A stretch of DNA of 51,421 nt, from positions 1 through 51,421 of the IMG/VR virus record IMGVR_UViG_3300019886_000007. One strand, 5' to 3'. The translations under genes were made by a program, and so were the position numbers. Below, one piece after another: positions 2,812 to 51,382 of the stretch; the first letter of the stretch is position 1, and each line of letters opens with the position of its first letter. The DNA comes from a virus. A model generated the notes under the pieces. That model saw only the letters and a list, made by a program, of their open reading frames with translations. It was not told the DNA's origin and searched no databases.

Positions 2812-4467
2812 TTACTTCCTATATGTACCAGACGGGTAAACTTTAACTTCAAATCCTTCTACATCGAAGTAACCATTTGTAGCTACCAGCCGCCACGTAA
2901 CGCGACGACAGTGAAGTACCTTTGAAAATTTAAGCAAACTGGATTTGTTAAGTTCAGTAACAGTAAACGTCTTAGTCTTTGCTACAACAAATGCTTTTCC
3001 GTCCTTGCTGTATTCCAAACGTACCGATCCACTCGTATACGCCCTGAGCTTCAAGGTAATCCGTGAGAAGTAAGAATCAACTTCCTCTGTCTCGAAATCC
3101 TTACTCTCTAGTTCTGTGCTAAACGTACCAGAGTTAGGATCAGGACTACCAGATACAGCAGGGTCATTGTACGTGTTAATGTCCTCCAAGACAATTTCAC
3201 CATCTGTTCTCCCATACATTCTAAGGTATGCGGAGACGTCAGATGGAGATAGATCATTGATTTGACCTATTAACTCATTAATAGTTCCCGGTAATGCGTC
3301 AATGGATAATCCCGCAGATGCAAATGGAATATCTGCAATACGCGAGACAATTTCCATTTCGTCATATTCCCAAGCTTTGGTACGGAAATTAAAAGTCCAG
3401 TTGCGTGTAATACCCGCACCCGCAAGTGGAATACCAATTGTGTATTCATTCTCGTCAGGCTTATAACTCCCGAATACACGATCCTTTTCATCTACTGCAC
3501 GTAAGATATCCTTTTCTACATTACGTCCAATAGGTTCAGGTGTACCATTAGGAGAATAGGCCCATACAGTCTTTGTACGTGTATCAAGCCAACATAAGTT
3601 ATTCAATGCTACAGCAGCAGAATACGGACAATCACAACCTACACCTGGAAATGCAGCGTAGAAGTTAAACGGGTTAGTAGGGATAGGATTCTTAGTTGCA
3701 ATCCATACCGATTGTTCACGTAACACTAGCATGATGTTAGTGAATCCGAAGATACCCGTTAAGAAATCCGAGAAATCGCCGGGAGAGTCTACAAGTGGAC
3801 CTGACCCTGCGCTCTCGTTTACGGATGGATTCCATTCATCTAAGACACCATCTGCACTCCAACCAACCTGTACAGGATTAGGAGAACCACCCTGTAAATT
3901 AGCACCAACAATACGATTAAAGAATGCTGTTAAGAATCTATAGTTAGTCTTAACTGTGGCTTCTGAAACGTTTAGTACCTTGTAATTAGGAATCGTAGTA
4001 ACTAATTCCTGTACTGGATTGACACCATTGTTAACAAAGAATACACGATCAAATGCAGCTACAAATTGCATCAGATCACTTTCATCGCCTGCAAGCGTGG
4101 TTACAGCAGGAGGAACGTTAGTCCATACACCACCAGCACGACTATGAATAGTATCCTTTGTGGCCCGGAAGAAGAATTCGCTTCCAGAAGATTTCTTAAA
4201 ATAATATACACATAGTACAGCTTTACTGTTAGGCTTTGTAGGAGTAAGTAATATTCCACCCGGACGACGACTTACTCTATCAAACCTAACACGAACATTC
4301 TTAGCAAGACGTAATGCGCCATTAGGAATATCAGCAGGGTCCAGAGATGTAATCATACCCTCGTTGACACGTCCTTCTGCAAGCGTAATCTCTTGCATTT
4401 GACGCACACTTTGGCCCTGCTGAATCATCTTTATCTCGCCAAATGGGCGACTCTGTGGACGGGCCAT
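2812..4467 (-). CDS. Tail nozzle / tail-hub protein (P22 gp10-like candidate)
   Basis: 551 aa, beta-rich throughout. Residues about 190-220 (RIVGAN...VGWSADGVLDEWNP) resemble the WS-D-P-x-W pattern of podovirus nozzle and P22 gp10-type proteins. There are paired aromatic/Gly strands at 240-370 and a C-terminal beta domain at 440-540. It would close the tail tube below the adaptor. It starts with a TAATG overlap after the 199-aa structural gene and ends one base before the GNAT-like gene. There is no enzymatic motif. The family call rests on motif resemblance and neighbours. Confidence 0.65.
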   Translation of the reverse strand: MARPQSRPFGEIKMIQQGQSVRQMQEITLAEGRVNEGMITSLDPADIPNGALRLAKNVRVRFDRVSRRPGGILLTPTKPNSKAVLCVYYFKKSSGSEFFFRATKDTIHSRAGGVWTNVPPAVTTLAGDESDLMQFVAAFDRVFFVNNGVNPVQELVTTIPNYKVLNVSEATVKTNYRFLTAFFNRIVGANLQGGSPNPVQVGWSADGVLDEWNPSVNESAGSGPLVDSPGDFSDFLTGIFGFTNIMLVLREQSVWIATKNPIPTNPFNFYAAFPGVGCDCPYSAAVALNNLCWLDTRTKTVWAYSPNGTPEPIGRNVEKDILRAVDEKDRVFGSYKPDENEYTIGIPLAGAGITRNWTFNFRTKAWEYDEMEIVSRIADIPFASAGLSIDALPGTINELIGQINDLSPSDVSAYLRMYGRTDGEIVLEDINTYNDPAVSGSPDPNSGTFSTELESKDFETEEVDSYFSRITLKLRAYTSGSVRLEYSKDGKAFVVAKTKTFTVTELNKSSLLKFSKVLHCRRVTWRLVATNGYFDVEGFEVKVYPSGTYRK

Positions 4468-5423: not shown

Positions 5424-5667
5424 TCGTTGCCTTTAAACGATTCGGGTTAATATCTGTACCATTCATCAATCTACCAAGTAGCGAATTATGAAAGTATCTT
5501 TCATTAGCTGACATTCTATCATTGCGTCCTCTATGCTCAAGCCCGTGAATGGCAGCAATTAATGCAGGTGATGGGCTAGGCTGTTCTAATGCTGCATCTA
5601 ATAATGCTCTCCACCTAGGCCCGTTTTGTTTTCTGCCACCTGCCCCAATGTATTTAATAGTAGCCAT
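5407..5667 (-). CDS. Hypothetical protein, basic, 86 aa
   Basis: 86 aa, Arg/Asn-rich, with a helical centre (residues 15-50) and no recognisable motif. It sits three bases after the secreted-protein gene and overlaps the fibre-tip-like gene. No function is suggested beyond membership of the tail/lysis part of the late unit. Confidence 0.5.
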   Translation of the reverse strand: MATIKYIGAGGRKQNGPRWRALLDAALEQPSPSPALIAAIHGLEHRGRNDRMSANERYFHNSLLGRLMNGTDINPNRLKATNGTRG

Positions 5668-5669
5668 GT

Positions 5670-6143
5670 TCAGAAAGAGTCGTGTACAATCTTAATTAGT
5701 GTCATCGGCGGTGGAACAGCAGTACGAATATACGCGAAGGCCCACGCACCAGGAACGCTGCACTTGCCACCACGACATTGATAAATAGAATCACCAATAA
5801 CATTAACTGAGTCACCATATGCTGGCTTCTTTAGCTTAAACGAATCAGCAAGTCCTGCTGTACCAAATTTCCGTCTAATTCTCGTATTAGCTATACGAGT
5901 TACGGTATCAATACCATAGAACTTGAAGTTTTTACTCACATGCATGATATAAACTGTACTATCAGCAACACCAAGACTATCTTTAGGTTGCGTCCAAGAT
6001 AGAGCAATCTTTAATGAATCACCAGCAATGGTAACATTGTACGCATCCGGTGCCCAACTAAGCTGAACAGGTGGAGGTGCTACTGTTGCTGTCTGTGCAG
6101 CCATTGTTGAAACTAATAAACCAATCATAATAATTGTTTTCAT
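5670..6143 (-). CDS. Secreted fibronectin-III-like protein
   Basis: 157 aa. It starts with a Sec-type signal peptide: MKT, then a hydrophobic stretch ending near MAAQTA at about residue 20. One beta-sandwich-like domain follows, with WAPDAY near residue 33 and repeated DSL/DTV pairs, in the style of fibronectin type III modules. Two cysteines in the C-terminal third (CRGGKC) could form a disulphide after export. The ATG at 6143 overlaps the endolysin stop as TAATG, with GGAG 10 bases upstream; an ATG three codons earlier has that GGAG only 1 base away. Its place beside endolysin and holin suggests envelope action. Confidence 0.6.
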   Translation of the reverse strand: MKTIIMIGLLVSTMAAQTATVAPPPVQLSWAPDAYNVTIAGDSLKIALSWTQPKDSLGVADSTVYIMHVSKNFKFYGIDTVTRIANTRIRRKFGTAGLADSFKLKKPAYGDSVNVIGDSIYQCRGGKCSVPGAWAFAYIRTAVPPPMTLIKIVHDSF

Positions 6144-30808: not shown

Positions 30809-30881
30809 GGACACATAACTCAACTGGTAGAGTAGCGGACTTTTAATCCGCAAGTTGTGGGTTCAAATCCCACTGTGTCCA
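30809..30881 (+). tRNA. tRNA-Lys (anticodon UUU)
   Basis: A 73-nt cloverleaf: acceptor GGACACA/TGTGTCC, D-arm with CAACTGGTAGAG, anticodon stem GCGGA/TCCGC with loop CTTTTAA (anticodon TTT), T-arm GTGGG-TTCAAAT-CCCAC, discriminator A. CCA is not encoded. A start codon follows only two bases later (30884). Confidence 0.95.
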
Positions 30882-39804: not shown

Positions 39805-40000
39805 AATTGAAGTACACATTCGTACACAGCATTTCAACGGTGATGTAGAACGTGATGGTAGTATTAGCATTCAGGATAAGGAATCGCGAGACTTTGTTCT
39901 ATTGTCCGCTAAGCCAGAAGAAGTGGACGATCTTATAAACTTGTTGCAACTACTTAAAGAGGAAAGAGTCAAACATGGTTATGAGAGTCCCCGGAAGTAA
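39785..40000 (+). CDS. Hypothetical protein, 71 aa
   Basis: 71 aa, beta then helix (REIEVHIRTQHFNGDVERDG, SISIQDKESRDF, then VDDLINLLQLLKEER). GGAG lies 8 bases before the ATG. It overlaps neighbours by 20 and 26 bp. Unknown. Confidence 0.5.
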   Translation: MPNAQREIEVHIRTQHFNGDVERDGSISIQDKESRDFVLLSAKPEEVDDLINLLQLLKEERVKHGYESPRK

Positions 40001-40493
40001 CGTTGCATGTGTACCGATCTTCGATCCAGATATGGTAGGGAGTTTATACGTACCAGATATAGCAAAAGAAAGATGCGATCAGGGTATTGTAAAGTACGTT
40101 GGACCTTTAGTACGGTGGGTAAAACCAGGTGACCATGTATTGTTCTCCGGTTATTCAGGAACACTTCTATCTGTTGAAGGAGAGGGAAAGCTCATTGTCA
40201 TGCCAGAGCGATTCCTCCACGCCAAAGTTGACAGTCCCGATACGGACATTCCAGGTGTTTATTTTAAATCGAGAGATGGTATCTACTTCGTCGCCACATA
40301 TGAAATGGTTATGGAATTGATAGCTGACGCATTTCAGGGTGCGAAGTGGTTACCAAGAAGGATACTTGATAAATCCGCCAGACGAGAGACAGATAAAGGA
40401 AGTCACTACATCTTCGCTGGACACGCAGATGAGGATATGGTGGGAGATGATTTACAGCCGCCTGAGAAGGAGTCTACCAATGCCGGGGATTAA
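39975..40493 (+). CDS. GroES-like co-chaperonin
   Basis: 172 aa. Residues 3-85 carry the Cpn10 signature: R-V-P..NVACVPIFD, GSLYVPDIAKER-C-DQGIVKYVG, VKPGDHVLFSGYSGT, GEGKLIVMPERFL. That is the order of GroES and of phage T4 gp31 (R..V......G.I.IPD.AKE..QG.V...G...VK.GD.VLF..Y.G). The C-terminal 85 residues are an extra extension. It probably works with the host GroEL to fold the phage capsid protein, although the capsid genes lie in the late unit. Confidence 0.75.
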   Translation: MVMRVPGSNVACVPIFDPDMVGSLYVPDIAKERCDQGIVKYVGPLVRWVKPGDHVLFSGYSGTLLSVEGEGKLIVMPERFLHAKVDSPDTDIPGVYFKSRDGIYFVATYEMVMELIADAFQGAKWLPRRILDKSARRETDKGSHYIFAGHADEDMVGDDLQPPEKESTNAGD

Positions 40494-41121: not shown

Positions 41122-41267
41122 AGTACGCTGGCCCATTTCTAATATTAATACTTAATGGTGTCTTAGAGGATGAAATAGTTTGTTCTCCTTGGGCACCACC
41201 TGAGATGACTGTTATGCATAGCAGAGTCACAAAGCGTATTCACGTTGTTTATCATGGGTTAAACTAA
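41118..41267 (+). CDS. Hypothetical protein, 49 aa
   Basis: 49 aa with a hydrophobic beginning (AGPFLILILNGV). ATGA overlap with the previous gene and TAATG overlap with the polymerase gene. GAGG precedes the ATG. Unknown. Confidence 0.5.
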   Translation: MKYAGPFLILILNGVLEDEIVCSPWAPPEMTVMHSRVTKRIHVVYHGLN

Positions 41268-42991
41268 TGCCCAAGCCAACACCAAATAAATCTAAATTCG
41301 CCATTGGTGATATCTATGTCCCAGACGAAGGACCAACGTCTAGTAAAATCCTTTTCGTTGGTGAAGCACCGGGTGAAAGCGAAGAACTTGACAAGCGACC
41401 TTTTATCGGTGCAGCAGGAAATATGCTTATCAATTGCATTATGCGCAACGGGCTTGCGCGCGAAGAGGTTCGACTTGCCAATCTCTGTCATTTTAGGCCC
41501 CAATACAATAAATTCGAGACGCTACTCGGGACAAGTGTATTACAGTCCGGGATCGAAGAGCTTAAACATTACATTAAAACTTATCGACCGAATGTCATTG
41601 TCGCACTTGGGAACTGGCCGCTCTTTATCCTTACGGGAAAAGGAACTGGTTACGCAGGCATTTCTGCGTGGCGTGGAAGTATCCTTCCCTACATCTTTGA
41701 TGAAAAAATAAAGGTCGTACCTACATACCATCCTAGCTACATTGTAAGGCAGCGTGTAGATTATCCGATCTTCGATCAGGATATCAAGCGTGCTGTCATA
41801 GACTCTGGACATACTGATTTCAATTACCCACAACGTAATATCATTATTGATCCCAAAGACTTAGCGGTAGAAGAGTGGACGCAACAGCTATGCAACAGTG
41901 AATTCTTAGCAGTCGATATCGAATCAGTTATCAAGACTACACATATCCTGTGCGTAGGCTTCGCACCGAATCCATACACCGCAGTTGTGTTTCCATATAC
42001 CGAATACAACGCTAACTTCATAGATCGTATTCTAAAATCTCGTGCCAAGAAAATATTCCACTTCGGTATCTTCGATACTGAGATGTTGTATCTCAACGGC
42101 CATGAAACAGAGAACTACGTCCATGATACCTTGGTGATGCAACATGTATTACAACCCGAGTTACCTCAAAGCCTTGACTATATCACGTCCGTTTATACAC
42201 GAGAACCATACTACAAAAGCAGTGGTCGTGCAGACATACCGAAAGATCAGAAGGCTTGGAGCAACAAAACGAATCGCACGAATCTTTATCGTTACAATGG
42301 TAAGGATTGTTGCTGTACTTTTGAGTGCTTTATACCGATGATGGCAGAGTTGAAGCAAGAGAAGTTTATACCCACATACGAATATAAGATGGAACTTATC
42401 CCTGCGTTCGGTAGTATTGGACGTGCAGGATTGCCAATTGATATGGAGCGTCACACGTTACTCAAGAACAGTCTAACGAATCGTTACGAGACTTTGCAGT
42501 TTGTGTTTGAAAAAATTGTTGGTCATTCAATGAATGTTAAGAGCCCGAAGATTAAGGATTTACTCTATGTCGAGCACAAGCTCCCCGCAAGACGAAACAG
42601 AGAAGGATCACTCACAGCAGACGAAGATGCAATTGTCTCGCTTATTGGATTCGTTAAAAACCATATTGCAAGTCTCAAAACTGACAGGACACTCTTTGAG
42701 TGGGAGCGAAAACTCTCGATACTCACAGGTATACTTAAGATACGAGGTGTCCGACAGCTTATCTCTGTTTATCTCAATGCCCGTATATCGGACGATGGAC
42801 GAATTCGATCTACATATAAACCTGCGGGTCCAGAAACTGGACGATCCGCTTGTCAAAAATATGTTGACGGTAGTGGATTCAACGCTCAGACAATGCCGAG
42901 AGAAGCTATTGAGGTAACGGAAGTAGAACTTAGAGCTACACCGACTATTAGCATTGATGATGTTGATGAGGAAGAAGAGGTTGCGGCGTGA
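41267..42991 (+). CDS. DNA polymerase A, N-terminal part fused to uracil-DNA glycosylase
   Basis: 574 aa in three parts. 1) Residues about 25-180 resemble family 4/5 uracil-DNA glycosylase: VGEAPGESE (31-39), and H155-P-S157 (TYHPSYI); the Fe-S cysteines of family 4 are absent. 2) 3'-5' exonuclease: Exo I VDIES (D217/E219), D270 in FGIFDTEM, D287 and Exo III YNGKD (D347). 3) Start of the family A polymerase: LLYVEHKLPARRN, STYKPAGPETGRSAC and FNAQTMPRE. It ends in an acidic tail (DDVDEEEEVAA) exactly before motif A. The rest of the polymerase is encoded at 43315-44196. Confidence 0.85.
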   Translation: MPKPTPNKSKFAIGDIYVPDEGPTSSKILFVGEAPGESEELDKRPFIGAAGNMLINCIMRNGLAREEVRLANLCHFRPQYNKFETLLGTSVLQSGIEELKHYIKTYRPNVIVALGNWPLFILTGKGTGYAGISAWRGSILPYIFDEKIKVVPTYHPSYIVRQRVDYPIFDQDIKRAVIDSGHTDFNYPQRNIIIDPKDLAVEEWTQQLCNSEFLAVDIESVIKTTHILCVGFAPNPYTAVVFPYTEYNANFIDRILKSRAKKIFHFGIFDTEMLYLNGHETENYVHDTLVMQHVLQPELPQSLDYITSVYTREPYYKSSGRADIPKDQKAWSNKTNRTNLYRYNGKDCCCTFECFIPMMAELKQEKFIPTYEYKMELIPAFGSIGRAGLPIDMERHTLLKNSLTNRYETLQFVFEKIVGHSMNVKSPKIKDLLYVEHKLPARRNREGSLTADEDAIVSLIGFVKNHIASLKTDRTLFEWERKLSILTGILKIRGVRQLISVYLNARISDDGRIRSTYKPAGPETGRSACQKYVDGSGFNAQTMPREAIEVTEVELRATPTISIDDVDEEEEVAA

Positions 42992-43119
42992 GAGCATGGG
43001 CGATAGTTACAGCGATAATGCTGAGTATCATGGTTAGTATCCATCTCATATGGAATGTACCACTAGAACCCATGCTGATAGGATATGCAATGTCACAGAT
43101 AACGTGGGTGGCGCGATGA
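42988..43119 (+). CDS. Small membrane protein inside the split polymerase locus, 43 aa
   Basis: 43 aa, GTG start overlapping the polymerase stop (GTGA), GAGG 9 bases upstream. One or two hydrophobic segments (AIVTAIMLSIMVSIHLIW; LIGYAMSQITW). Together with the next gene it occupies the gap in the polymerase. Unknown. Confidence 0.5.
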   Translation: MRAWAIVTAIMLSIMVSIHLIWNVPLEPMLIGYAMSQITWVAR

Positions 43120-43328
43120 CAAAATTCGACTACAACGCGTCGATATATGTTCGCGTTATCATAGAACAAAATGACGAACGTCGTGGTGATATTAGTTTCA
43201 TGATTAAGCCTGGTGAAACCACATTGGGTGAAATCAATGGTATGTTGATTAACTTGAAGCGCAAGATTGAAGAACGTCTAGATGAGATTTTCACCCACTA
43301 CAGAATATGGAAAGATGCCCAAAGTTAA
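43116..43328 (+). CDS. Hypothetical protein inside the split polymerase locus, 70 aa
   Basis: 70 aa: beta then helix (ASIYVRVIIEQNDERRGDIS, TLGEINGMLINLKRKIEERL). ATGA overlap with the preceding gene. It overlaps the polymerase C-part by 14 bp. No nuclease, intein or intron motif is seen. Unknown. Confidence 0.5.
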   Translation: MTKFDYNASIYVRVIIEQNDERRGDISFMIKPGETTLGEINGMLINLKRKIEERLDEIFTHYRIWKDAQS

Positions 43329-44196
43329 AATACGTAGTATGGTAACGGCCCGCTCCGGCTACGAACTATTAGCATTCGATCTGTCTCAAGCAGAGTCTTG
43401 GATTGTAGCGTTCGCAGCTAACGAACCTAACATGAAGAAAGCATTGATGTATGGAGATATACATTCACAAACTGCGGTTGCTATTTATCATCAAGAGGCA
43501 ATTTATTGCGACCATACATGGGGAAGCGCACCCAATGATGGTAAGATATGTATACGGGAAGATGGATGTGGAACTGTGGTTCTTTACGACGAAAGATATT
43601 TGGGCAAGAAGTCTAATCATGCAAGTGCCTATGGGATGGAACCGCCAAGGCAAGTGGAGGTCATTAATAAAGAATCGGATAAGCCTCCTTATATCACAGT
43701 CAATCTAGATCAGACCAAGATGATGAATAGGGCTTGGCACGATTACTATAGTATCAAAGGTTGGTGGAACGAGATTCAAGAACAGTTACAATCTCAACAA
43801 CGTGTACTATATAACTACTATGGATTCGCACGCACATTCTATCAGATTTGGGGTAATGAGTTATTCAAGGAAGCATATGCCTTCAAACCACAATCCACCG
43901 TCGCAGATCATTTCAATGGTGCTACCCATCCCGAGCTTGGGATTCGTGGTGGTTTCCTTGAACTTTATAAGAGACATGTCAGAGACAAGCACTACTATGA
44001 AGTCATTAATCACGCTCACGATTCAGTGTTACTCCACATACCTAAGCCCGTGAGTGAGGACCTAATTTATGAAATCCGATCTATCCTTGAACGCCCGCTT
44101 GTCGTGGAAGGAGAGACTTTCACAATTCCTGTTGATTGTGAGAGGGGGGAGAGATTTGGAGAGTTGGAGAAAGTTAAATGGAGGAAGGCTGCCTAA
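43315..44196 (+). CDS. DNA polymerase A, C-terminal catalytic part
   Basis: 293 aa holding the palm and fingers: motif A LLAFDLSQAESW (D22), motif B KKSNHASAYGM (about 98-108) and motif C AHDSVLLH (HDS, where most family A enzymes have HDE). Between A and B an insert with C64-D-H66, C79 and C85-G may bind zinc. It resumes where the 574-aa N-part stops (after NAQTMPR), so the two products must associate. ATG 43315 is assumed; ATG 43282 would add 11 residues and overlap the preceding gene more. Confidence 0.8.
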   Translation: MPKVKIRSMVTARSGYELLAFDLSQAESWIVAFAANEPNMKKALMYGDIHSQTAVAIYHQEAIYCDHTWGSAPNDGKICIREDGCGTVVLYDERYLGKKSNHASAYGMEPPRQVEVINKESDKPPYITVNLDQTKMMNRAWHDYYSIKGWWNEIQEQLQSQQRVLYNYYGFARTFYQIWGNELFKEAYAFKPQSTVADHFNGATHPELGIRGGFLELYKRHVRDKHYYEVINHAHDSVLLHIPKPVSEDLIYEIRSILERPLVVEGETFTIPVDCERGERFGELEKVKWRKAA

Positions 44197-44897: not shown

Positions 44898-46133
44898 ATG
44901 GCCGAATATAAACGGAAGTGTGAAAACTGGCTTACGACTTTTGGAGAATGGACACTCCCAAGATGCGAAAGCCCAGAGTCATTTGTATTCTGGTCCGGAC
45001 TATTCATATTATCGTCAGCTTTACGCCGACAGGTTAAGGTACCTAAGGAATATCTCGGTTCGTGGGAGTGTCCCCCACATTTATACATCATCTTTATTGG
45101 TGATGCGGGTAAGGTACGTAAGACTACAGCTGCAAATTTTGGTAGCGAATTGCTGGATGAAATTCCGTTCATTAAAAAAGGCCCTGCGATTGTAACACAA
45201 GCAGCATTGATGACGAAGTTAGCAGAGGCTCAAGATGCATCGGTGTATCTTATATCAGAAGAGTTCTCTGACCTTATCATGAAGTCTAAAGATGACATGT
45301 TTCAGTTTCTCACCAGTCTTTTTGACGGGCGCAAATCCATTGAAGCTACAACTACTAGTAGAGGTATCGAGCTTGCCATGCGACCGTGCGTTAATATGCT
45401 GGCAGCTACTACCCCACAATGGATTGCCGGAAATATGCCGGAAGCTATTATCGGTGGTGGTTTTGCATCACGCGTGATCTTTATTCAGGAGGAAAAGGTA
45501 CGTCAACGGAGAATGTACTATCGTAAGGTGTACAAGCAAATCAACTTCAACAAGTTGCGTGATGATCTATTAGCGGACCTAGCATACATTGCAGAGTTTA
45601 TTGCTGGAGATTTTGCACTCACAGAAGAAGCAGAAGAGTATATGGAAGCGTGGTATCAAGCACACGCTGAAGGTGAAATTGATAACTACAAGTTATCGGG
45701 TTATTACCAACGTCGTCCAGCACATATTCACAAGATTGCCATGTTGTTGCACATTGCCCGCAACGACTCTTTAATCCTTGATATATCGGATTTTCAGAAT
45801 GCCATTGCCATCATTCAAGGTATCGAACGGAATCTCCCGAAGGTGTTTGAAGGAGTTGGAAAGAACCCGTACACGTTTGATATCCACAGAATGCGCGCTT
45901 TTATTCATCAATCCGAACCTGTTGCGCACTCGGAGATACTTGGCGCGTTCTCATCAAGTGCTGAACCTCGCAAGCTTGAGGAATTGTTAATGTCGTTGGT
46001 AGCTATGGAAGAGATTATACAATTCAAAAGGGGAAGCACAATTTACTATGCCTCCCCCACATTCGTCATTAGAACATCTGATAATAACAAACCTAAGTTT
46101 GATCCTAACAATATTGAAACGTGGAATGCTTAA
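44898..46133 (+). CDS. DUF3987-like helicase/primase-type ATPase
   Basis: 411 aa. Walker A-like GDAGKVRKTT (68-77; K-T-T at its end), a Walker B-like LISEEFSDL (118-126), and a sensor-type segment MLAATTPQW (167-175). The pattern (SxFWSGLFILSSALRRQV; TTSRGIELAM; LLHIARND) is that of phage DUF3987 proteins, replicative-helicase-like AAA ATPases often located near the polymerase. It probably unwinds DNA at the fork, replacing a DnaB-type helicase. Confidence 0.75.
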   Translation: MAEYKRKCENWLTTFGEWTLPRCESPESFVFWSGLFILSSALRRQVKVPKEYLGSWECPPHLYIIFIGDAGKVRKTTAANFGSELLDEIPFIKKGPAIVTQAALMTKLAEAQDASVYLISEEFSDLIMKSKDDMFQFLTSLFDGRKSIEATTTSRGIELAMRPCVNMLAATTPQWIAGNMPEAIIGGGFASRVIFIQEEKVRQRRMYYRKVYKQINFNKLRDDLLADLAYIAEFIAGDFALTEEAEEYMEAWYQAHAEGEIDNYKLSGYYQRRPAHIHKIAMLLHIARNDSLILDISDFQNAIAIIQGIERNLPKVFEGVGKNPYTFDIHRMRAFIHQSEPVAHSEILGAFSSSAEPRKLEELLMSLVAMEEIIQFKRGSTIYYASPTFVIRTSDNNKPKFDPNNIETWNA

Positions 46134-46358
46134 ATGCGCTGCCCAGAATGTTCTAAACAAGGTAAAAGCCACGTTGTATTTGTTGGCCCCACACGTATTA
46201 CATTAATGGGCTATGCTCGATTCTACGATCAAGATGATAAGTTACATGACCATAACCCAAATAGAACCACAATAGATTACAGCTGTTCAAATAACCACAC
46301 TTGGGAAGATGTTAGTGGTACCATATGCTGGTGTGGTTGGAGAAGTAGATATGCTTAA
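46134..46358 (+). CDS. Zinc-ribbon-like protein ending the early unit, 74 aa
   Basis: 74 aa with C3-x2-C6 (RCPECSKQG), C51 (SCSNNHTW) and C-W-C near residues 65-67. It resembles a two-knuckle zinc ribbon. It is the last gene of the rightward unit; its TAA overlaps the stop of the oppositely oriented 1675-aa gene. Confidence 0.55.
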   Translation: MRCPECSKQGKSHVVFVGPTRITLMGYARFYDQDDKLHDHNPNRTTIDYSCSNNHTWEDVSGTICWCGWRSRYA

Positions 46359-49300
46359 TAAGCTTGTCCCGGCGCTGGTCTTGGCGGCCGTCCACCTGTG
46401 GATTCAAACGCAGCTTGTCCTAACTTTCCAGCCTTGGCGGAATGAAATGCGTTTATCATTGCATCAATCTGATAAGAGAATGGCATGTAAAGATGTGGCC
46501 CCTGCCAATCACCATTCTTATCAAGAGGCAGAATCTGTTTCAACTTACGCATTGCTTCACTCTTCCGCATCCCCCGTCCTGTTAGCGCATCCCAAACTGT
46601 GCGCGAGGATTCTACAAGGGGACCTCCTAGATTCGTCGCTACTGGAACTACAGGCGCATTATCGTCAAATAGATTCGACCCTGGAAATATGTACCAGTTG
46701 CCAAGATCCAAACCAGTTGCATCTGCTACTTTTGACAGTCCATAGGTAAATGCAGCGGCTCGTGCAATTTTGCCACCACGTTCTGCTAATGTACCCGTAG
46801 TAATTTGACGCCCAATATTGCGGGCTTGGAAGGCTGACCATGTACCGAATTGTCCAAAAATCCTACCGGCTAAATTCCCTGAATAGTGGAGTCCATTCGA
46901 CTGACCAAACTTCCCAATTATTTGTTCTTGAGCAATTTTTGCCAAGTATACCGACGCTTCATCAAATTTTGCAGCAGTTACCAGTCGATCATATTCTTGT
47001 TGAATTGGTAATTCAAAGGCATTTAGGCCCACCTCCTTATACGCAGCGGACTTATTCAGAATCTTACGACTCAGCTTTGCTAGAGCGGCATCTGAATCCT
47101 TTAAGAACGTAAGATATACACCAGCGTGGGCAAATCTATATGCAGCAGGCTGCAAAGATACATCCAGTCCTACTTCTGCAATGCGATTTGCCCCGCGAAT
47201 TGCTGCTGATGGATCAAGTGTCGCTCCACGCTCCGCAGGATTTTCCAATATCAAAGCACTACGCTCTGGCACTACTCCACTTTCTACTAGCGAACGTGTA
47301 TTATGGAGCGTACCTCGTGCCTCTGCACCCAACAACCCATACTGAAGGAATTTCCTTGTTTTATCCAATCCATGTTCAGTAAACATTACACCGACATTAG
47401 TAACGAAATCTCGTACACCTGCAAGTGGTTTGGCTCCCTGTGCGGCAGTCTCACCAATTAAACCAATAGCATTCGCAATCTTCTTGGCGTCGATGTTTAA
47501 CCCAAGATGACCGTTGATGAATCTATCCAGCGTTTCGTTAATCACACGATCAAACTTCGGTGTCACATTTTGTACATCACTGAAAAATCTCTGCAATGAA
47601 TTATGTACAGCTACCTTACGTCCATCATTCGGTAATGCCTTCAACATTGTTTCTGCTGATTTCTTAGCTGCATCAAGAGCAGGCATAAGGTGGTCAGCTT
47701 TAAGGCCAGCGCGAGTGTATCGCACGAGAGCCACAACGGGGTCCCGCTCGTAGGTGTCAATCTCACCTGTGCGTGCCATCCGTGCGTAGAAATCAGTATC
47801 AACATTTCCAAACCCCGAAGAGAATTCTCTTACAGTAGACGGCACGAATAATCCCTCTTCGTACAATCTAATGTGTGTCATGTAGTGGCCTAATCTACGG
47901 CCGTCTGGAATGTTGAACGTATCGGCAAAGTCGTTATATGCTGTCTCCAATTCTTTCAGCAACATATCCTCTTGCGGACCAAACTTGTTCTCCTTCATAA
48001 ATTCCTGCCGCGACAATTCACCCTGACCATCGCGAGCCATACGCGAACGTGCTAAACGTAGCGACGCACCCTTATCACCCTTGAGATTATCTACACGATC
48101 AATTGCTTCAGCCAAGATGGGATTCTCATGTAGGCCCGCCTCTAGTTTGAGACGTAAAATCTCGTTCTCATACTCGACAGACCCTCTCGACATTCCTTCG
48201 GTAGCTTCACGTCTCGCAGCCCTAAAATCATAAATCTCACGAAGATCTACTTTGTTATCTGATAACCAATCTCCTAGTTCTATTTCTCCCGCTCCAAGCT
48301 GTCTATGTTTGAAGTACAAGTTGATAACTTCATCAGGACTCATAGCTTCAAGTGCTTCACCAACTTTGACACGGCGTTCTGCGCCAAGCGTTCGTGCCAT
48401 ATTCTGAATACGAATTAATCGCGGTTCCACCTTACGCATATTAAATGTGAATGCATCGTATCCACCTTGCACGACACGGAACACATTGTTGAAGAATGAG
48501 GTTTTCCCTTGATACGTAATATCGTGATCTAAGAATAACTTGTTGTTAGTTACTAACGCCTTACCAGCGGTTGTAGCTCTTGCAAGTAATTCCTGCAATT
48601 TGGTTACAGCAGGAGGATCATACGGCAATTGGTTAGGTGGCAATGGACCACGCGGTGTGGATAAATCACCACCAATTACCCACGGTGGAATAGGTCCATT
48701 CGTAGAACCACCATCGAATTCAATACCACGTTCGCTACCAGCCTTATTAATGAAGTTACGTGCCTCAGCTAACGTGCTAACTTGGCCCACTTTCTTATTT
48801 GAATTCACATCACGGAGGATTACTTCTCCAGACTCCGCACGCTCCAAATACAACCCTGCGCGACCAGCACGGTCAACAACACGATGCAAACTAACCCTAT
48901 CTTCCAACTGACGACGCTCAAGCTCGCGGCCATATTCAGAAATAGCGCGCCTGTATACCTCAGCATCTGACCCATTCATATCCTTGAGAAGTTCTTGCGA
49001 GAACCTCTTAGCAAACTGTTGCTTGAGTCCTTCTACGTTACCTAACTTGAATTCCTTTGCAAAATCATTTACACTCTCATCAAACGATTTACCATTACCC
49101 AATACTTCTTTAAGTTCTGAAGGCTTAGTCTTAGCCTCACGAATAACTGTGTTCTCAACCTTACCAGTCTCCAACCTAGTAACATAGTCTTTCCAGAAAG
49201 TTAACTCGGCGTCAATGTTACCAAGAAACTTGTTCTTCGTCTGCATAGATTCTAGTTCATCTACCTTATTCCTTGCACGATCTAGCTCTGTAAACGCTCC

Positions 49301-51382
49301 ACGATTAGCCTCTGGAATTGGCTCTTTCATCGCACGTAAGCGTACTAAATCCTTGGCTTCATCACCAGTAAGAGGCTCTAGAATATCACGCCCCGTTGCG
49401 GGGTCTTGTCCGTGTACCGTAGATTGTTTAGTCTCAAGAGCCTGTAATCTAGCAGTTTCCTCAGGAGTTAACTTGTGTGCAACTGTAGGATCATCAACTT
49501 GTCCAAGAATACGCTTTCTGAAATCTTCATATAGACGTGTAGTTACAGCTTCCTTTGTGGCCGCAACGAATGCTTCTTTGTGATTTATGTCTGTCAAATC
49601 GTTAACGTCTACGGTGTATCGCTTACCAGTAGCCATAGTTTCTACGATGGCATTTGGTCCTACAAACTCCTTGATGCGTACATCGTTGCCACCATGATCT
49701 GCAATCTGTTCTTTGATAAATCCTGTACGTTGAAAGTCTAGAACGTTAGCTGGTGTACCAGCAGTAGGAATAACACCCTGATCTAACTGCTCAAATGATT
49801 TTTCTAGATGTGCATTAACACGCTGTCTCATCTGCGCAATATCAGCGAGACTAGTTTGCTCATCATCGGTTAATTGATCTGTTAGCTCCTGTAACTCTTT
49901 CTCATACGAAATCCTGTTCAACATATCCTTCTCAGCGGATTTCGCAATGTACTCAGGAGATTTCTCAGACCATAATCCACGTCTAGCTTCTCTGGCTCGC
50001 CCACGAGCATCCATGAATCTAAGCTGCTGCTGTAACTTAACAACTCTATCAGCAGTACCAGTTAATCCAATAGCTTCAAGTGGTGCTGCTTGTGGACGAA
50101 CAAGCTCGCCAAGATCGGCAGACTCACCAGAAATTAATACGTCATTCAGAATCTCAGTAGGTCCAGCACCCGGTACTTTATGAACAGTATAGTTAAGGTG
50201 TGGATTATCTGTTTGAATCTTAGTTAATTCTTCATCAGTTACACCACGTATTACATTTGTCTCGTGTGGTTTCGTAACCTTAGCAATAGCCTGATTGAGA
50301 GTCTCCGATGTAGCTAACGCATCTACACGTTGCACAACATCGGGTAATAGATCAAGCTGTGTAGCCTTAAACTGTCTATAGTTGGCAAGTTGTCCAGCTA
50401 ACTTAGCCATCTCTAGTGGTTGATTTGGTGCCTTCGTAACAACACCGATACCACCAGTAATCAATGTAGCAGCAGTACCAATACCAGCAAACATGAATGC
50501 AGATGCTAACATCTGTGATGCTTGATCTGGACTATCTGCACCCTGAATCATTCCATATGCTAGACCAGCAGCGGCGCCAGATGATGCATTAGTTAGAGCA
50601 CTACGTACAAAAGGACTCCGAACAAAGAAATCTTCTTGTGTAACAGCAGCAAGACGTAATGCCTGTGTGGAGATAGATGAGGGTACACCACGCGGTAATG
50701 CTTCAGCAGCAATTAATGCAGCCTCGTCTGTTAAACCACCTAATGCAGCACGCTGGCCCCGCAACATCAATGCTTCTACACCTGAATGCGCACCCTTAGC
50801 AATGGCGAATGCTACACCGTTTGCAATAGTATTAACAGTAGCAGTTGCACGTTCCTCTGGATTCGCAGCACGGATACCAGAAGGGTCATCAAACTTAGTA
50901 CCAGAGATAGTAGTAATAGCATCCAATGCTGGATCAACAACAAACCCCTGTATTAATCCATCAAATGCTTTACCTGGATCAGTCTTGAATTCATGCATCT
51001 GGGCACCAATAATATTCTTGGTACCAGTTAATACACCACCGATAGCAGTCATCGGATTCTGACCCATTGCATCAGCGAACATACCAACGCCACCGAAGAA
51101 ATTCTCGGCCTTCTTACCTAAGATCGCAGCCGTACCGGGACCAGTGTATCCGTGGTCAGCAAACATTTGATTACGCTCTTGATCTGAACCTAACCAGTAT
51201 CCTGCCCAATTGTTACCAATAGTTTTTACACGAGTTAATAAACTTGGGCGTGTAGGTTCAGTAGCAACCACAGTCTCATCTGGCGCATCGTCAGGAAACA
51301 TACCACCCAACGGTGATGTATCTACTGGCGGCGCTGCCTGTGTGGTATCGTCAGGAAATAGATCAGAAAGTGGTGTAGTCAT
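46355..51382 (-). CDS. Large internal virion / DNA-ejection protein
   Basis: 1675 aa, by far the largest product. It starts with an acidic Pro-rich tail containing two FPDD motifs (9-12, 29-32). Long helical parts follow (about 370-520, 640-760) and a helical domain near 930-1170 with LFLDHDITYQGKTSFF. The C-terminus has an amphipathic region (GTLAERGGKIARAAAFTYG). No RNA polymerase, lysozyme or protease motif is seen. Size and its place at the end of the late unit suit an ejected inner-core protein such as T7 gp16. The ATG overlaps the previous stop across the circle junction (ATGA). Confidence 0.65.
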   Translation of the reverse strand: MTTPLSDLFPDDTTQAAPPVDTSPLGGMFPDDAPDETVVATEPTRPSLLTRVKTIGNNWAGYWLGSDQERNQMFADHGYTGPGTAAILGKKAENFFGGVGMFADAMGQNPMTAIGGVLTGTKNIIGAQMHEFKTDPGKAFDGLIQGFVVDPALDAITTISGTKFDDPSGIRAANPEERATATVNTIANGVAFAIAKGAHSGVEALMLRGQRAALGGLTDEAALIAAEALPRGVPSSISTQALRLAAVTQEDFFVRSPFVRSALTNASSGAAAGLAYGMIQGADSPDQASQMLASAFMFAGIGTAATLITGGIGVVTKAPNQPLEMAKLAGQLANYRQFKATQLDLLPDVVQRVDALATSETLNQAIAKVTKPHETNVIRGVTDEELTKIQTDNPHLNYTVHKVPGAGPTEILNDVLISGESADLGELVRPQAAPLEAIGLTGTADRVVKLQQQLRFMDARGRAREARRGLWSEKSPEYIAKSAEKDMLNRISYEKELQELTDQLTDDEQTSLADIAQMRQRVNAHLEKSFEQLDQGVIPTAGTPANVLDFQRTGFIKEQIADHGGNDVRIKEFVGPNAIVETMATGKRYTVDVNDLTDINHKEAFVAATKEAVTTRLYEDFRKRILGQVDDPTVAHKLTPEETARLQALETKQSTVHGQDPATGRDILEPLTGDEAKDLVRLRAMKEPIPEANRGAFTELDRARNKVDELESMQTKNKFLGNIDAELTFWKDYVTRLETGKVENTVIREAKTKPSELKEVLGNGKSFDESVNDFAKEFKLGNVEGLKQQFAKRFSQELLKDMNGSDAEVYRRAISEYGRELERRQLEDRVSLHRVVDRAGRAGLYLERAESGEVILRDVNSNKKVGQVSTLAEARNFINKAGSERGIEFDGGSTNGPIPPWVIGGDLSTPRGPLPPNQLPYDPPAVTKLQELLARATTAGKALVTNNKLFLDHDITYQGKTSFFNNVFRVVQGGYDAFTFNMRKVEPRLIRIQNMARTLGAERRVKVGEALEAMSPDEVINLYFKHRQLGAGEIELGDWLSDNKVDLREIYDFRAARREATEGMSRGSVEYENEILRLKLEAGLHENPILAEAIDRVDNLKGDKGASLRLARSRMARDGQGELSRQEFMKENKFGPQEDMLLKELETAYNDFADTFNIPDGRRLGHYMTHIRLYEEGLFVPSTVREFSSGFGNVDTDFYARMARTGEIDTYERDPVVALVRYTRAGLKADHLMPALDAAKKSAETMLKALPNDGRKVAVHNSLQRFFSDVQNVTPKFDRVINETLDRFINGHLGLNIDAKKIANAIGLIGETAAQGAKPLAGVRDFVTNVGVMFTEHGLDKTRKFLQYGLLGAEARGTLHNTRSLVESGVVPERSALILENPAERGATLDPSAAIRGANRIAEVGLDVSLQPAAYRFAHAGVYLTFLKDSDAALAKLSRKILNKSAAYKEVGLNAFELPIQQEYDRLVTAAKFDEASVYLAKIAQEQIIGKFGQSNGLHYSGNLAGRIFGQFGTWSAFQARNIGRQITTGTLAERGGKIARAAAFTYGLSKVADATGLDLGNWYIFPGSNLFDDNAPVVPVATNLGGPLVESSRTVWDALTGRGMRKSEAMRKLKQILPLDKNGDWQGPHLYMPFSYQIDAMINAFHSAKAGKLGQAAFESTGGRPPRPAPGQAY

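Follow-up and report, generated by a model that had tools for sequence, protein, structure and literature searches.

A phage UDG-exonuclease-PolA DNA polymerase encoded by two genes and broken within the palm

Introduction

What becomes of a phage DNA polymerase when its gene is cut in two inside the palm? This question is raised by a 51,421-nt viral metagenome contig (the whole stretch analysed here, hereafter the window), in which a family A polymerase is encoded by two genes with two small genes lying between them. Such an arrangement could be an assembly error, an interrupted gene restored by splicing, a polymerase in decay, two proteins that work apart, or a fixed split whose products work together. 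The record also holds a terminase, portal, major head protein, helicase, exonuclease and Sak4-like annealing protein, which identifies it as a tailed phage that carries a replication block of its own.

Results

Gene layout at the polymerase locus

The only recognisable DNA polymerase of the window is a UDG-exonuclease-PolA enzyme encoded by two genes, here called the N-part and C-part genes (Table 1). A sequence-only reading of this DNA had already proposed this split, with two small genes in the gap, and its coordinates hold. Overlaps join all four genes, as had also been claimed: the GTG start of gap gene 1 overlaps the N-part stop as GTGA, the start of gap gene 2 overlaps gap gene 1 as ATGA, and the end of gap gene 2 overlaps the C-part start by 14 bp. 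An ATG further upstream, at 43282, would also give an open C-part frame, but a relative that is 90% identical in the C-part (L001; relatives are cited by row label) keeps MPKVKIRSM at the position of 43315. The proposal that both halves had gained new ends stood only in part: the long acidic tail is a trait restricted to the window's sub-clade, N-parts of the other sub-clade ending 3-20 aa past QT.PR, and the C-part has hardly any new start, with 5 residues before IRSM.

Table 1 Features of the polymerase locus and its surroundings, in window positions
Feature	Position	Strand	Description
tRNA-Lys(ttt)	30809-30881		
tRNA-Leu(taa)	39254-39337		
GroES-like co-chaperonin gene	39975-40493		Cpn10, E 8e-7
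N-part gene	41267-42991	+	574 aa; UDG-like and 3'-5' exonuclease domains; thumb; first palm strands, reaching NAQTMPR; 29-aa acidic tail
UDG-like domain	41267-41824		Family 4 motifs GEAPGE at residue 32 and HPSY at 155
Acidic C-terminal tail of N-part	42902-42988	+	EAIEVTEVELRATPTISIDDVDEEEEVAA; 11/29 residues D/E
Gap gene 1	42988-43119	+	43 aa; starts with GTG; hydrophobic product with one likely membrane helix
Gap gene 2	43116-43328	+	70 aa
C-part gene	43315-44196	+	ATG start, 293 aa; rest of PolA palm and fingers; motifs A, B and C
Cysteine/histidine insert in fingers	43507-43575		CxH..C..C, between motifs A and B
Equivalent of E. coli Pol I 762	43618-43620		C-part residue 102
DUF3987 primase/helicase-like gene	44898-46133	+	Replication-block neighbour; PF13148 E 4e-21; phrog_14296 DNA primase E 1e-46
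1675-aa reading frame	46355-51382	-	Adjoins replication block

In addition to the two tRNA genes of the window, tRNA genes are found upstream of the polymerase in several relatives.

Domains and motifs of the two parts

Pfam and PHROGs matches agree with the assignment of the N-part as a UDG-like domain, a 3'-5' exonuclease and the start of a polymerase, with Pfam returning UDG at residues 19-163 (E 5e-24), DNA_pol_A_exo1 at 200-362 (E 7e-7) and the start of DNA_pol_A at 399-529 (E 8e-4). The exonuclease residues (DxE, D, YxxxD) are present as D217/E219, D270 and Y343/D347, and the thumb and the motif 1 arginine are kept. Residues 11-184 of the predicted structure align with the family 4 UDG 1ui1 (Z 23.9 over 165 residues), and the family 4 motifs are retained. 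The four family 4 Fe-S cysteines are missing, however: the sole cysteines of the domain are Cys57 and Cys74, there is no N-terminal Fe-S pair, and His or Phe (HFRPQ) aligns to the KCRPP cysteine.

The C-part matches PF00476 (E 4e-8) and phrog_17 (E 1.5e-20), and all three of the polymerase motifs previously ascribed to it could be located: motif A as FDLSQAE (D22), motif B as K98-x3-H102-x3-Y106 and motif C as H235-D236. Family A motif residues are invariant or nearly so across split and intact rows. At the position equivalent to E. coli Pol I 762, for which PMC9069017 and PMC13228545 discuss only F, Y and L, His is found in 29/29 split rows; since 44/45 intact UDG-exonuclease-PolA rows have His there too, it was rejected as a mark of split polymerases. 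The fingers also contain an inserted CxH..C..C stretch, shared with L001 and present as CxH..CxxC in L002, whose cysteine and histidine pattern is possibly zinc-binding.

Structural tiling across the break

AlphaFold2 (AF2) predictions were based on an alignment of 51 relatives, with the N- and C-part folded separately, and reached pLDDT values of 89.5 and 92.8, respectively, the end of the N-part tail being predicted as disordered (pLDDT <50 at 558-574). When the predicted structures were aligned to solved ones, N-part residues 191-548 corresponded to Klenow 329-685 and C-part residues 2-285 to Klenow 684-928, up to its last residue (1kfs, Z 21.1, rmsd 2.6); on Bst polymerase, the two parts covered 297-635 and 631-876. 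Klenow-type polymerases were also returned when the alignments were used as profiles to search solved structures. The parts thus tile the polymerase without a duplicated piece and meet at Klenow 684/685, which places the break inside the palm, in the loop that links the QNIP segment to motif A, in line with the earlier suggestion of a break in the loop before motif A. The complete thumb-palm-fingers fold is reached only by both parts together (Klenow 329-685 + 684-928), and on these models nothing is missing from the enzyme when the two are combined.

This tiling bears on whether the parts might have mostly separate roles, with the N-part acting in repair through its UDG and exonuclease and the C-part joining a different partner to form a polymerase. 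Both the UDG and the exonuclease domain of the N-part are complete, the long acidic tail of the window's sub-clade could bind other replication proteins, and the two genes lie 2-3 kb apart in L023 and L027. Yet the C-part lacks the thumb and first palm strands, the two parts fit together with no piece in common, and the thumb and motif 1 arginine of the N-part would be useful only in a polymerase, so that separate roles seem quite improbable. In its working form, the enzyme is most likely a complex of two chains.

One clade shares the break

The same break was found in 28 further IMG/VR contigs (~23 distinct sequences), down to about 38% identity. The C-part query alone recovered seven IMG/VR relatives and alignment queries added more; for the N-part, a single-sequence scan of viral contigs gave no matches, and an alignment query recovered relatives there. 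Across the clade, N-parts end 3-45 aa after [QM]T.PR and C-parts begin shortly before IRS[MFIV]. In maximum-likelihood trees of the joined parts (25 split rows, 23 once near copies were removed), the split rows form one clade (SH-aLRT 100), nested in a wider family of mostly intact UDG-exonuclease-PolA. An unsplit form was sought in related genomes, and the intact relatives all lie outside this clade, none of whose members has a single reading frame; every N-part relative nearer than the best intact one, and with both parts readable, is split. Searches found no close relative among phage isolates and no relative in prokaryote genome contigs, the latter sought as a host clue.

The catalytic Asp residues of both exonuclease and polymerase are kept in all 29 split rows. 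When the window is compared with L001, the body of the N-part has a dN/dS of 0.09 and its acidic tail one of 0.23; in the C-part, dN is 0.097 and dS is saturated. These values indicate that both parts are under purifying selection. An assembly error is ruled out by the same break in independent contigs, and these contigs, the selection on both parts and the Klenow tiling together bear out the sequence-only reading in favour of a fixed gene split.

The same data address the possibility that the polymerase is being lost, with the split gene degenerating and replication relying on the host. A UDG domain devoid of its family 4 Fe-S cysteines would fit such decay, but the catalytic residues kept across split rows, the strong purifying selection, the deep single clade and the retention of neighbouring replication genes make it barely credible. 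No other PolA, PolB or PolIII was found in the record, where another complete polymerase had been sought as a challenge to the split; since this metagenome contig has no repeats at its ends, a polymerase encoded elsewhere or use of the host polymerase is still conceivable.

Intron and intein

A self-splicing intron (group I or II) could occupy the gap and carry the small ORFs, with the mature mRNA encoding one polymerase. Group I introns do occur close by in SPO1-like polA, the Goe26 interruption lying between TGRLSSENPK and LNAQNFPR, about ten residues upstream, and the authors describing split PolA in OM43 phages considered an intron for their own case and left the matter open (PMC10580990). 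Rfam at the curated threshold misses the Goe26 element too, so that a negative there is weak, and a sensitive Rfam scan returned nothing in the window at E <=5 but matched the Goe26 control only weakly (RF00028, group I, E 0.2), which is modest evidence. Given this weak control, we relied instead on gap-free members and codon-level selection. Three members have no room for an intron, with gaps of 3 bp (L011), -1 (L019, a TAATG overlap) and -20 bp (L017, the C-part start lying inside the N-part); an intervening sequence long enough for a ribozyme is thus not present in every clade member. Further, protein-level constraint continues past the break as far as the stop codon, as seen in the acidic tail, and the gap genes, which differ between relatives, connect through 4-bp overlaps (ATGA or GTGA). 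For a split intein, the 3-45 residues that follow QT.PR are too few, as an N-intein domain would take roughly 90 aa at least. Neither a HNH nor any other homing endonuclease was recognised in the window's gap by Pfam or PHROGs, consistent with the earlier claim that no intein or HNH is present, and no intron was detectable. Judged from these sequence features, an intron or split intein is very unlikely.

Independent breaks elsewhere in the family

Other branches, outside the clade, hold further split rows (L080, L083 with L103, L096, and L146) in which the break lies closer to motif A by a few residues, and well-supported branches force at least three further changes beyond the clade's split. 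One origin for all splits was rejected (p-AU 7e-43, for a group named after the tree had been seen). The gap of the independently split L080 holds a MazG-like protein and that of L096 a HNH endonuclease (phrog_826, E 8e-13). Further breaks near the same spot occur in the OM43 phages and in Alcaligenes phage QDWS535, while in L117, L135 and Kuura the break lies near the exonuclease/polymerase boundary. Separately, L082 has a ~350-aa insert between motifs A and B, ending ..VTGNS inside motif B, that looks like an intein.

Gene content of the gap

Gap gene 1 has a homologue in L001 (64% over 33 aa), and its dN/dS against L001 is 0.18, compared with 0.56 and 1.0 in the other two frames, which indicates that it is a conserved gene; it had no Pfam or PHROGs match that would assign it to a family. 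For gap gene 2, a predicted gene, no homologue was found. Gap genes are mostly unrelated between members, close relatives excepted, and L001 shares with the window only gap gene 1. Elsewhere in the clade, gaps contain DUF3310 (five loci), a DHH phosphoesterase (L003), an epimerase (L023), and, in L027, ThyX together with a Tad2-like (Thoeris anti-defence 2-like) protein, the latter encoded at 4239-4463. By its gene content, the junction is a cargo slot with mostly unrelated genes. At one locus, L007, two extra copies of the N-part end QTLPRLEIEI (5509-5538, 5737-5766) each lie directly upstream of a gap gene, a pattern matched by 0/2000 dinucleotide shuffles; these repeats may be scars of repeated recombination with related phages at the junction. 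Similar junction repeats were sought in 24 other gaps, and none were found.

Discussion

Overall, we consider it highly probable that this locus represents a fixed split of a UDG-exonuclease-PolA, with a single ancestral break and two parts that would assemble non-covalently into an obligate two-chain family A enzyme, the phage's replicative polymerase. A single-chain gene was broken once, in the ancestor of the clade, between the palm QT.PR segment and motif A. As possible causes, L096 hints at a homing endonuclease that was later lost, and the gap-free members at a stop codon with internal restart. The parts have since been separate genes, usually translationally coupled, and would be made from one message. 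The N-part, with UDG, exonuclease, thumb and the first strands of the palm, and the C-part, with the catalytic palm and the fingers, would associate across the palm, and the pair would then act in phage replication, with recombination placing and replacing small unrelated genes at the junction.

A more ambitious view, which we hold to be doubtful, is that phage PolA is prone to repeated fission in the loop before motif A, which yields an obligate heterodimer and a DNA-level recombination slot. The split would then be kept for its function, e.g., dosing of exonuclease/UDG versus the catalytic part, or as a landing site for host-takeover or anti-defence genes in an essential operon.

A palm-cut replicative polymerase kept across a deep clade would offer a direct test of how an essential enzyme survives gene fission, with the test material at hand in split pairs, intact relatives and several independent repeats of the fission; if confirmed, it would be a natural two-chain family A polymerase. 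A published PolA survey restricted to single proteins that carry the motif 1 arginine, D705, K758 and F/L/Y at 762 (PMC9069017) would miss the clade on two counts, and such enzymes are thus probably under-counted.

Among known systems, a precedent of a working split polymerase is the split gp43 (43A/43B) of T4-like Aeromonas phage 25, whose products co-purify and are active (PMC2988022), which by analogy makes a two-chain assembly plausible for the window. In phages 25 and 44RR, too, the replicative polymerase takes up two genes separated by inserted material; however, gp43 belongs to family B, and the gap holds a seg homing endonuclease (phage 25) or an untranslated spacer (44RR) (PMC2988022). 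A family A case is provided by the marine OM43 (Methylophilales) phages MEP401 and MEP402 (PMC10580990; OP830906), where PolA is likewise in two genes, the break falls between the QN segment and motif A, the gap holds a small ORF (one there), and most relatives are split. Unlike in the window, this PolA has no UDG domain and belongs to a distant family, and its N-part ends ..QNFDGEIKTLFLSRYGE and its C-part starts MILNADAKALEWV, a break ten or more residues nearer motif A. In two other lineages, the PolA of Alcaligenes phage vB_Af_QDWS535 lies in two overlapping genes with no gap and a break just before motif A, and that of Caulobacter phage Kuura is broken at the exonuclease/polymerase boundary. 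Intact UDG-exonuclease-PolA (Desulfofustis phage LS06-2018-MD01, Microcystis phage Mel-JY34 and most IMG/VR rows L044-L145) have the same domain order, motifs and His at 762, but in one reading frame as opposed to the window's two; among SPO1-like genes built on broadly this plan, an intron may be present instead. No description of the UDG-bearing split clade was found in the literature searched. Split phage polymerases as a kind are already known. The new elements here are a clade with a UDG domain that was split once, deep in its history, at a precisely placed break in the palm, the repeated breakage of the same zone, and the use of the gap as a cargo slot.
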